This document shows positions 61,250-63,570 of a stretch of 64,000 nt of DNA, piece by piece (position 1 is the first letter of the stretch; each line of letters starts with the position of its first letter). The notes under the pieces were generated by a model. It worked only from the letters and a program-made list of their open reading frames with translations. It was not told where the DNA came from and did not search any database. The stretch is from Alphaproteobacteria bacterium (lineage in GTDB: Bacteria > Pseudomonadota > Alphaproteobacteria > Micropepsales > Micropepsaceae), in assembly GCA_016783965.1 (NCBI GenBank), contig JADHVO010000001.1, forward strand, positions 248,001-312,000. The letters run 5' to 3'. The position numbers were made by a program, and so were the translations under genes.

Positions 61250-61324
61250 GGGCGCGTAGCTCAGCGGGAGAGCACTCCCTTCACACGGGAGGGGTCACAG
61301 GTTCAATCCCTGTCGCGCCCACCA
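61250..61324 (+). tRNA. tRNA-Val (CAC)
   Basis: A 75-nt cloverleaf reads from GGGCGCG: acceptor stem GGGCGCG/CGCGCCC, D-arm GCTC...GAGC, anticodon stem CTCCC/GGGAG with loop TTCACAC (anticodon CAC), variable GGGTC, T-arm ACAGG-TTCAATC-CCTGT, and encoded ACCA end. The anticodon CAC decodes GUG, so tRNA-Val. The promoter lies just upstream. Confidence 0.95.
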
Positions 61325-61521: not shown

Positions 61522-62862
61522 ATGCGATCGGTGTCGTCGTGGATAATCGGTGTGGGGATGCTGGCGGCGGTAACAGCCGCCCTCACCACTTCTGCCGAGG
61601 CTGTGCCGGCTTTCGCCGAGCAGACAGGACAGCCGTGCAGTGCCTGCCATGTGGGTGCTTTCGGACCTCAGCTCACACCGTTCGGCCGAGCTTTCAAGCT
61701 CGGCGGATATACGATGCGTGCCGGCGATCAGTTCACCAATCCGGTCTCTGCAATGGCAATCATGTCCTTCCTGAACACGGCAAAGGACCAGGCCGCACCG
61801 CCCGCCCCGCACTACGGGGTCAACAACAACGCCACGATCGACCAGATCAGCCTGTTCATTGCGGGCGGCATCGACGACACCTTCGGAGGATTCTCACAGT
61901 TCACCTATGACGGCGTGGGCCGCGCCTTTTCCTGGGACAATCTCGACCTGCGGGCGGTGACGAGCGGGACTTGGCTGAACGTGCCAGTACAGGCGGGCCT
62001 CAGCCTGAACAACGCGCCCGGCATGCAGGATGTATGGAATACGATCCCGGCCTGGGGCTTCCCGTACACCAAAAGCAATCTTGCGCCTGCGCCGGCTGAA
62101 GCCACGATCTTTGATGGCCGGCTGGCACAACATGTGCTGGGCTTCACTGCCTATGCTGATTGGGACTCGCACGTCTACACCGAGGCCTCGTTCTACTGGT
62201 CGCCGGGCCGCCATTTTCTGAGCACGCTGGGTAGCGGCGAGGGCGTCGGCCGCATCACGGATGTCGCGCCCTATCTCCGCGTGGCGTGGCACGACGACCG
62301 GGGGGACGACAACTATGAAATCGGGGCGTTTTTCTTCCGGCCCGATCTCTATCCGGGCGGCGATCCGACAACCGGCACGTCCGATCTCTACACCGATCTC
62401 GGCGTCGATGCGTCCTACCAGTACACCGGCGACAACAGCAGCATCTACGGCGCGAACCTGCGCTACACATACGAGCATCAGCATCTGGCCGCGACCACGA
62501 TCCTGGGCGGCGCCACGAATCTGAATGACAATCTGAACGAGCTCAACGTCGACGCTTCCTATTACTGGCAGAATGAAATCGGAGGGACGGTCGGGTTCTT
62601 CGACAGCTGGGGTACGAGCGATCCGCTGCTTTACGGCGCCAGCGCGACGGGCAAACCGGACAGCGCGGGTTTCATTGTTCAGGTCGACGGCACGGCGTTC
62701 GGCCGCGACATGGAAATCCTGGATGGGCGATTCAACGTGCGGCTGGGCTTGCAATACACGGCCTATACCAGGTTCGACGGTGGCACGACGAACTACGACG
62801 GCGCCGGCACCAACGCTTCCGACAACAACACGCTCAGGGTCTTCCTATGGACGGCACTCTGA
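61522..62862 (+). CDS. Cyc2-like fused monoheme cytochrome c/outer-membrane porin candidate
   Basis: A 446-residue exported protein. Signal peptide at residues 1-27 (VGMLAAVTAALTTSAEA); then a single heme site CSACH at residues 39-43 within VPAFAEQTGQPCSACHVGAF, followed by PQLTPFGRAFKLGGYT. The remaining ~380 residues alternate hydrophobic and polar residues and are rich in Tyr, Asp, Gly and Asn (SFYWSPGRHF, EIGAFFFRPDLY, YGANLRYTYEH, LNVDASYYWQ), as in an outer-membrane beta-barrel. This architecture matches Cyc2 cytochrome-porins, which oxidise extracellular Fe(II). The barrel and the Fe function are inference. ATG has AGGGAG upstream; HiPIP and cupredoxin genes follow. Confidence 0.7.
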   Translation: MRSVSSWIIGVGMLAAVTAALTTSAEAVPAFAEQTGQPCSACHVGAFGPQLTPFGRAFKLGGYTMRAGDQFTNPVSAMAIMSFLNTAKDQAAPPAPHYGVNNNATIDQISLFIAGGIDDTFGGFSQFTYDGVGRAFSWDNLDLRAVTSGTWLNVPVQAGLSLNNAPGMQDVWNTIPAWGFPYTKSNLAPAPAEATIFDGRLAQHVLGFTAYADWDSHVYTEASFYWSPGRHFLSTLGSGEGVGRITDVAPYLRVAWHDDRGDDNYEIGAFFFRPDLYPGGDPTTGTSDLYTDLGVDASYQYTGDNSSIYGANLRYTYEHQHLAATTILGGATNLNDNLNELNVDASYYWQNEIGGTVGFFDSWGTSDPLLYGASATGKPDSAGFIVQVDGTAFGRDMEILDGRFNVRLGLQYTAYTRFDGGTTNYDGAGTNASDNNTLRVFLWTAL

Positions 62863-62894
62863 GCTCCGAACCCAACCTGCGAAAGGGCGACACG

Positions 62895-63167
62895 ATGAAC
62901 AAGACCAACCCCACCACCGCGGTCTCTCGCCGGCAAATGCTGCGGAGCGCAACCGTCACTGCGTGCGTTGCGGCCGCGCTTGTTGCCACAACAACCCAGA
63001 GCGCTCAGGCAGCCCAGGTAACACAGGCAGCCGCCGGCTATCAGCCCACACCGAAGGGCGATCAGCGCTGCGACAACTGCGCGCTATTCCAGGCGCCGTC
63101 GTCTTGCAGGTTCGTCTCCGGCGACATCAGCCCTGCGGGCTGGTGCAAGCTTTACGCGAAGAAATAG
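62895..63167 (+). CDS. high-potential iron-sulfur protein (HiPIP)
   Basis: A 90-residue periplasmic electron carrier. The N-terminal Tat signal is SRRQML (residues 11-16) followed by a hydrophobic, Ala-rich stretch ending near AAQ. The 4Fe-4S Cys set is C59, C62, C71 and C84 (CDNC, SSC, GWC), the HiPIP pattern C-x2-C-x8-C-x12-C. HiPIPs shuttle electrons at high potential, e.g. to photosynthetic reaction centres or cytochrome oxidases, and one acts in Acidithiobacillus iron oxidation (Iro). It lies between the cytochrome-porin and cupredoxin genes on the same strand. Confidence 0.92.
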   Translation: MNKTNPTTAVSRRQMLRSATVTACVAAALVATTTQSAQAAQVTQAAAGYQPTPKGDQRCDNCALFQAPSSCRFVSGDISPAGWCKLYAKK

Positions 63168-63225
63168 GGACAGAAACGGCGCGTCGGCAAAATGGCCCGC
63201 GCCAGGCCTTCGTAGGGAGGAAGTC

Positions 63226-63570
63226 ATGTTTGGAGCCGTCATAGCCCATCGCGGCCTATTAGCGGCGTTGGCCTTTCTGCCAATGCTCGTTGCACCTGCC
63301 GTCGCTGCGGAGCGCTACGTCGATCAACACGATCTGATGTTCGTGCCCACGAGCATGACTATCAAGGCCGGTGATACGGTGCGTTTCACCGACACCGACC
63401 GCATCACGCACAACATCACCATAGTCAACCCCGATGGCTCGACCGAAGACAAGGGAATGAGCACATACAGCCAGCACATCGTGGTGCAGTTCGACAAGCC
63501 CGGCATCTACAAGGTGATCTGCCGCATCCATCCCGACATGAAGATGACGATAACGGTGGAGAAACCCTGA
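63226..63570 (+). CDS. cupredoxin (plastocyanin/amicyanin-like type 1 copper protein)
   Basis: A 114-residue secreted protein with signal peptide (LLAALAFLPMLVAPAVAA). Probable copper ligands: His62 (THN), Cys99, His102 and Met105 in CRIHPDM, the C-x2-H-x2-M spacing of the amicyanin type. It is a one-electron periplasmic carrier. Following the cytochrome-porin and HiPIP genes, it fits a chain moving electrons between the outer membrane and the respiratory chain. ATG 63226 is preceded by GGGAGGA. The partner is inferred from the neighbours only. Confidence 0.92.
   Translation: MFGAVIAHRGLLAALAFLPMLVAPAVAAERYVDQHDLMFVPTSMTIKAGDTVRFTDTDRITHNITIVNPDGSTEDKGMSTYSQHIVVQFDKPGIYKVICRIHPDMKMTITVEKP

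Follow-up and report, generated by a model that had tools for sequence, protein, structure and literature searches.

A putative three-gene route of electron uptake through the outer membrane: a predicted Cyc2-type cytochrome-porin without the signature arginine, encoded with a HiPIP and a cupredoxin in an alphaproteobacterium

What is the function of a monoheme cytochrome-porin whose gene is followed directly by genes for two small redox carriers? Three such genes lie at positions 61522–63570 of the window, the whole stretch of 64,000 nucleotides that was analysed. The original prediction was that a Cyc2-like cytochrome-porin, a HiPIP and a cupredoxin form a route for electrons across the outer membrane, and that this is the strongest candidate in the window for an undescribed system. 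All three genes are on the plus strand, with a gap of 32 bp between the Cyc2-like and HiPIP genes and of 58 bp between the HiPIP and cupredoxin genes, so the predicted collinear order with short gaps is seen in the coordinates. A purine-rich stretch resembling a Shine–Dalgarno sequence precedes each of the three starts. Scans of the cluster for promoters and terminators gave nothing above chance, so we infer an operon from the spacing alone. Upstream, at about 200 bp, the 5′ neighbor is a tRNA-Val(cac) gene (window positions 61250–61324). Downstream there is a stretch without a clear gene, and then genes on the opposite strand for an SDR-type and a pyridine-nucleotide-disulfide-type oxidoreductase, both named by eye. 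The GC content of the cluster is 0.61–0.62 vs 0.63–0.70 in most of the flanks, a weak contrast. The tRNA-Val gene was considered as a fixed insertion site and rejected, since the copies in relatives have either no nearby tRNA gene or a different one; in two relatives another tRNA gene is found in the same stretch as the Cyc2-like gene, and in the remaining relatives there is none.

The first gene (61522–62862, plus strand) is present in a single copy in the genome and encodes a protein of 446 amino acids. The translation has a signal-like sequence at residues 1–28, as read by eye, and a single N-terminal CxxCH at residues 39–43, as originally described. This motif is located in the heme domain, AVPAFAEQTGQPCSACHVGAFGPQLTPFGRAFKLGGYT (residues 27–64; 61600–61713 on the plus strand, computed from the residue numbers), which was compared with the motif in PMC8406198. 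Pfam and NCBIfam, searched up to E = 1, hold no model that matches the protein, a profile search of PDB sequences likewise found nothing, and the other members of its alignment gave no convincing library match either. Its homology was therefore assessed with purpose-built profiles. The AlphaFold2 model, made from an input alignment of 49 rows, has a pLDDT of 85.4 and a pTM of 0.84, and shows 16 main strands at residues 75–445; the N-terminal domain, which surrounds the heme motif, is short and helical. Thus, the barrel of 14–18 strands that had been expected is found in the model, as a predicted 16-strand outer-membrane β-barrel (61744–62856, plus strand), and its top structural matches in the PDB are general porins (E = 3.5e-10). 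Sixteen strands have also been predicted for Cyc2 of Mariprofundus PV-1 (PMC8406198), and the protein has the size used to define Cyc2, at least 365 amino acids with a 16-strand porin domain.

In a phylum-wide search with alignment A1, dozens of genomes of one family, f188, gave matches, with E-values down to 1e-21 and motifs such as AIPAFARQTGAACLSCHFQSFPTLNAFGR. The motif and the near-universal presence of Cyc2, among other things, suggest that these genomes are Zetaproteobacteria. The references for homology are proteins with a Cyc2 motif (ARQT-type), not sequences of characterised Cyc2. An HMM built from 12 ARQT-type f188 proteins matched only the Cyc2-like ORF among the 641 ORFs of the window, with E = 1.6e-12, and a profile–profile comparison of f188 with the protein gave a probability of 98.8%, E = 1.3e-16, over 262 columns. 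The full length of the protein is also matched by a profile of other canonical ARQT/CHxxFPxL Cyc2 sequences, with E = 2e-131. Furthermore, in a tree of the barrel region alone, with f188 as the root, the window protein is nested within Cyc2-type sequences, and genomes of the same genus encode close homologs as well as proteins with the canonical signature AVPSYARQTGLACEACHTVFPQLTPFGR. The CxxCH is invariant in the family, and the N-terminal domain is its most conserved part. These comparisons indicate that the protein is homologous to Cyc2, in line with the relationship originally suggested; its outer-membrane location and covalent heme are predicted. Met65 and Met78 were considered as the distal heme ligand and rejected. 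Since neither is conserved across the family, we propose no distal ligand.

Is the protein then a Cyc2 in the published sense? Keffer et al. stated that no proteins other than Cyc2 have AxPxFAR[Q/K][T/Y] upstream of CxxCH, and they excluded sequences that lack this motif (PMC8406198). The window protein has AVPAFAEQT, with Glu33 at the position of the Arg. In the signature, PxL follows four residues after CxxCH; here PQL is present, with two extra residues before it (CHVGAFGPQL). The original prediction missed what is most distinctive here, the absence of the signature Arg and the separate clade to which the protein belongs. This clade consists of 20 alphaproteobacterial proteins with a support of 100, and the Arg is absent from every one of them, replaced by E, V, A, D, Q, or M. 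Its members occur in about one-quarter of the sampled genomes of one genus, as well as in Sphingomonadales and other families. On the tree, the longer CxxCH–PxL spacing is one change, while the loss of the Arg is four. An AU test gave p = 0.04 against a single origin of all Arg-less proteins, which is weak, as the group was named after the tree had been seen. There are too few independent pairs on the tree for a paired test of Arg loss against cupredoxin presence.

Four charged residues are shared within the clade: Arg439 and Asp389 in all 20 members, Arg314 in 19, and Asp344 in 18. All four are predicted to face the barrel lumen, from the hydrophobic alternation along the predicted strands. 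Arg439, Arg314, and Asp344 are missing from the seven nearest Arg-bearing sequences, while Asp389 is present there. Compensation for the lost Arg33 by Arg439 and Arg314 fits the main clade and fails as a general rule. A second, independent Arg-less group, mostly beside cupredoxin genes, lacks both residues, so such compensation is possible but not general. We therefore place the window protein in a divergent clade within the Cyc2 family rather than with Cyc2 in the published sense, and it very likely works like a Cyc2. A bolder reading, that the clade is a distinct cytochrome-porin type in which the loss of the Arg and the gain of Arg439, Arg314, and Asp344 retune the heme and the pore, with carriers exchanged to match, is one we put forward only tentatively. 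If it is true, the donor or the potential would be unlike that of canonical Cyc2.

Arg-less and variant sequences were also seen elsewhere. The second Cyc2-like group (L171, L175, L176, and L112), mostly Arg-less and beside a related small cupredoxin, occurs in three other alphaproteobacterial families and one genome of the same genus. A plasmid of A. ferrooxidans YQ-N3 (CP084173; L099) carries, separate from the rus operon, an Arg-less Cyc2-like gene with a c-type cytochrome gene after it, and Acidiphilium plasmids (H5, H7) carry similar genes. Cyc2-type proteins with an ARQV motif are found in MAGs of Verrucomicrobia (L072, L073, L075, and L078), and canonical ARQT proteins in MAGs of Campylobacterota (L090 and L093).

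The second gene begins with ATG at 62895 and its stop ends at 63167 (plus strand). It encodes a small HiPIP of 90 amino acids including the signal, with the four Cys that had been noted and the Tat motif SRRQMLR, and it scores 25 bits against PF01355, for which the gathering cut-off is 22. Among solved structures, the closest match is PioC of Rhodopseudomonas palustris TIE-1 (6xyv, E = 1.7e-11). The score against the Iro model NF041615 is 66 bits, below the equivalog cut-off of 100. The protein is therefore PioC-like, and the link to Iro in the original prediction gives way to one with PioC, which receives electrons from an outer-membrane conduit (PMC5566968).

The third gene (63226–63570, plus strand) encodes a protein of 114 amino acids, one of three Copper-bind proteins in the genome, with a score of 41.9 bits against PF00127 (cut-off 21.2). 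The type-1 copper assignment is upheld by this score and by the ligands, C-x2-H-x2-M plus an upstream His. It matches the pseudoazurin, amicyanin, and plastocyanin models, each below the equivalog cut-off, and its top PDB matches are pseudoazurins (E = 3e-7). Rusticyanin, with which the cupredoxin had been associated, is not among its matches in NCBIfam to E = 1 or in the PDB to E = 0.001. The ligand loop of rusticyanin is longer than C-x2-H-x2-M. The protein is therefore best described, from its matches, as pseudoazurin/amicyanin-like and not as a rusticyanin. Its nearest homologs in the genus are those encoded beside Cyc2-like genes (74% in G013, 43% in G031).

Do these genes belong together? 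Among 37 genomes of the genus, all eight with a Pfam HiPIP also have a Cyc2-like gene (Fisher P ~ 0.002, to be taken as a guide because the genomes are related), and by coordinates the HiPIP gene is within 2 kb of the Cyc2-like gene in all eight. Given this co-occurrence, and given that the only HiPIP of the present genome adjoins the cytochrome gene, the grouping of the two exceeds chance. The complete trio is rare. A HiPIP and a cupredoxin beside an Arg-less protein were found only in this genome and, in a different order, in G013, so that two carriers side by side are unusual within the clade. A HiPIP alone occurs in G022 and G023, a cupredoxin alone in G031, and a monoheme cytochrome c in G021 (twice), G034, G032, G002, and G035. 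Most canonical Cyc2 copies in the genus have a diheme cytochrome c as their neighbor, and often a HiPIP as well. Other alphaproteobacterial families have cupredoxins (G390, G338, and G150) or HiPIPs (G105, G467, and G585; Methylocapsa, Methylocella, and Methylocystis) near Cyc2-like genes, and across the family the neighbors are small redox carriers, namely HiPIP, cupredoxin, monoheme c, and diheme c. On the tree, HiPIP, cupredoxin, and cytochrome c each change three times within the clade. The recurring unit is thus Cyc2 with one or two small carriers, which have been swapped repeatedly. As regards synteny in relatives, the fixed trio of the original prediction does not hold beyond one other genome, while Cyc2 with interchangeable carriers does, and the HiPIP and the cupredoxin are supported as partners of the cytochrome-porin. 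Because the redox genes are common to the compared loci and the flanking genes are not, the redox unit seems to move or to be lost as a small cassette.

Other partners were seen outside the alphaproteobacteria. In most of the Methylococcales loci L041–L094, a single-CxxCH protein of about 250 amino acids, with the motif Y.E.IAPILNRDC..CHTPSI, is encoded some 1.1 kb beyond the 3′ end of the Cyc2-like gene; it is unlike any partner in alphaproteobacteria. On a betaproteobacterial plasmid of Caballeronia sp. SBC1 (L100), genes for a HiPIP, a Cyc2-type ‘cytochrome C’, and a diheme cytochrome are found together.

We propose that the three genes probably form an operon-like unit for the uptake of electrons across the outer membrane, with Fe(II) as the most likely donor. 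The N-terminal c-heme domain probably plugs or lines the 16-strand pore, and the heme would take electrons singly from an extracellular donor, most likely Fe(II), although reduced humic matter or a different donor of comparable potential is also possible. Electrons would then go from the heme to a small periplasmic carrier encoded beside it, here the PioC-like HiPIP and the pseudoazurin/amicyanin-like cupredoxin, and these would relay them towards the inner membrane, plausibly to the bc1 complex or to an oxidase of the cbb3 or aa3 type. Genes for an aa3-type CoxA and for CcoN/CcoO/CcoP-like cbb3 proteins are present in the genome, the types being assigned from sequence. In this scheme the donor, the location of the proteins, the attachment of the heme, the direction in which electrons flow, and the order of the carriers are all inferred. 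The electron route of the original prediction is in this way supported by a putative Cyc2-type porin with HiPIP and cupredoxin partners. There is no match to RuBisCO in the genome, so the unit is likely to supply a heterotroph with extra energy or electrons and not to sustain autotrophic growth on iron by the Calvin cycle.

How closely would this unit resemble an iron oxidase? Fe(II) oxidation has been tested for Cyc2 proteins of three clusters (PMC8406198). For the Arg-less protein, Fe(II) is a plausible donor and, of the single candidates, the likeliest. A specialised Fe(II) oxidase conduit that works exactly like Cyc2 of known iron oxidisers, in which the HiPIP would act as Iro/PioC does and the cupredoxin as rusticyanin does, is a substantial possibility, though one we rate below even. 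The Cyc2 profile homology and the predicted fold, a HiPIP resembling PioC of the phototrophic iron-oxidation pathway, and the cbb3-type oxidase genes all speak for it. However, the clade has lost the signature Arg and changed its lumen charges, the cupredoxin is not rusticyanin-like, and the genome is without a RuBisCO match. Cyc2-like homologs are also present in methanotrophs and in further organisms that are not known to oxidise iron, cyc2 of Methylobacter is induced by dissolved organic matter (PMC12211021), and humic substances have been discussed for methanotroph relatives of Cyc2 (PMC6344600). The occurrence of the homologs and the Methylobacter response suggest that the donor may not be iron, although orthology of the Methylobacter gene to the window gene is not established. 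Another extracellular donor, such as reduced humics, quinones, or electrodes, to which the conduit would be tuned by a different heme potential or donor access set by the loss of the Arg and the new charges in the lumen, is a possibility of somewhat lower rank. It would account for the clade-wide loss of the Arg together with the gain of predicted lumen-facing residues (R439, R314, and D344) that the sister group lacks, but the second Arg-less group has neither R439 nor R314, which leaves the link between loss and gain in one lineage only.

Outward flow, in which respiratory electrons pass to Fe(III) or humics under oxygen limitation, we consider unlikely. The direction of flow cannot be read from a sequence, and the same has been proposed for Cyc2-bearing methylotrophs (PMC6344600). 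However, characterised Cyc2 proteins oxidise Fe(II). High potentials are also usual for HiPIPs and type-1 copper carriers, and such potentials are a better fit to uptake. That the protein is an ordinary porin with a chance CxxCH and unrelated copper and iron–sulfur neighbors is very improbable: its best solved matches are indeed general porins, but the CxxCH is invariant in the family, whose N-terminal domain is the most conserved, and the redox genes travel together without common flanks. Electron uptake by a Cyc2-type conduit, most likely from Fe(II), is thus the reading that we prefer.

Among marker genes for microbial iron oxidation Cyc2 is the main one, and the Arg that is absent from this clade is part of its published signature. 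A filter on the signature would discard Arg-less proteins, and surveys that apply it would overlook the clade. The frequent replacement of one carrier by another (HiPIP, cupredoxin, or cytochrome c) next to one type of conduit is a natural experiment on the electron acceptor of an outer-membrane heme, and the hand-over from heme to carrier is a poorly known step of Cyc2 pathways outside Acidithiobacillus. The term ‘undescribed system’ in the original prediction is too strong, because a cluster of Cyc2 with a HiPIP and cytochromes in Bradyrhizobium (PMC5566968) and one of Cyc2 with a cupredoxin, the rus operon (PMC10654088), have both been reported. A limited literature search, which covered few subscription papers, found no paper on Cyc2 with both a HiPIP and a cupredoxin, or on an Arg-less Cyc2 clade.

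The window protein resembles the Cyc2 family (Cyc2 of Acidithiobacillus and Cyc2PV-1 of Mariprofundus; clusters 1–3) in having a signal peptide, one N-terminal CxxCH, a predicted 16-strand barrel, and the core AxPxFAxQT...CxxCH...PxL...GRxFKxxGY, with detectable profile homology. It differs in the Glu in place of the Arg (V, A, D, Q, or M in its clade mates), in a PxL two residues further from CxxCH, and in the clade-specific Arg and Asp in the predicted barrel lumen. The Bradyrhizobium cluster (Percak-Dennett et al. 2017, as cited in PMC5566968) likewise joins an alphaproteobacterial Cyc2 gene to a HiPIP gene; from its description there, it has three periplasmic cytochromes c, whereas the present cluster has none and has a cupredoxin instead. 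The rus operon of Acidithiobacillus (cyc2-cyc1-cup-cox-rus), the classical Cyc2–cupredoxin operon (PMC10654088), shares a cupredoxin gene close to Cyc2, but no cyc1, cox, or rus adjoins the window cluster, and the cupredoxin here is short and pseudoazurin/amicyanin-like. With pseudoazurin and amicyanin, the cupredoxin shares the fold family, by profile and PDB matches, and the amicyanin-type spacing of C-x2-H-x2-M. It falls under both equivalog cut-offs, however, and in the stretch that was read its gene has no methylamine dehydrogenase or denitrification gene as a neighbor. The HiPIP, like PioC of R. palustris TIE-1 and Iro, is tiny and predicted to be periplasmic. It is under the cut-off of the Iro model. 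PioC carries electrons from an outer-membrane conduit, as we propose for the window HiPIP, but the partner of PioC is the PioAB porin–decaheme complex, whereas the partner here would be a Cyc2-type cytochrome-porin.
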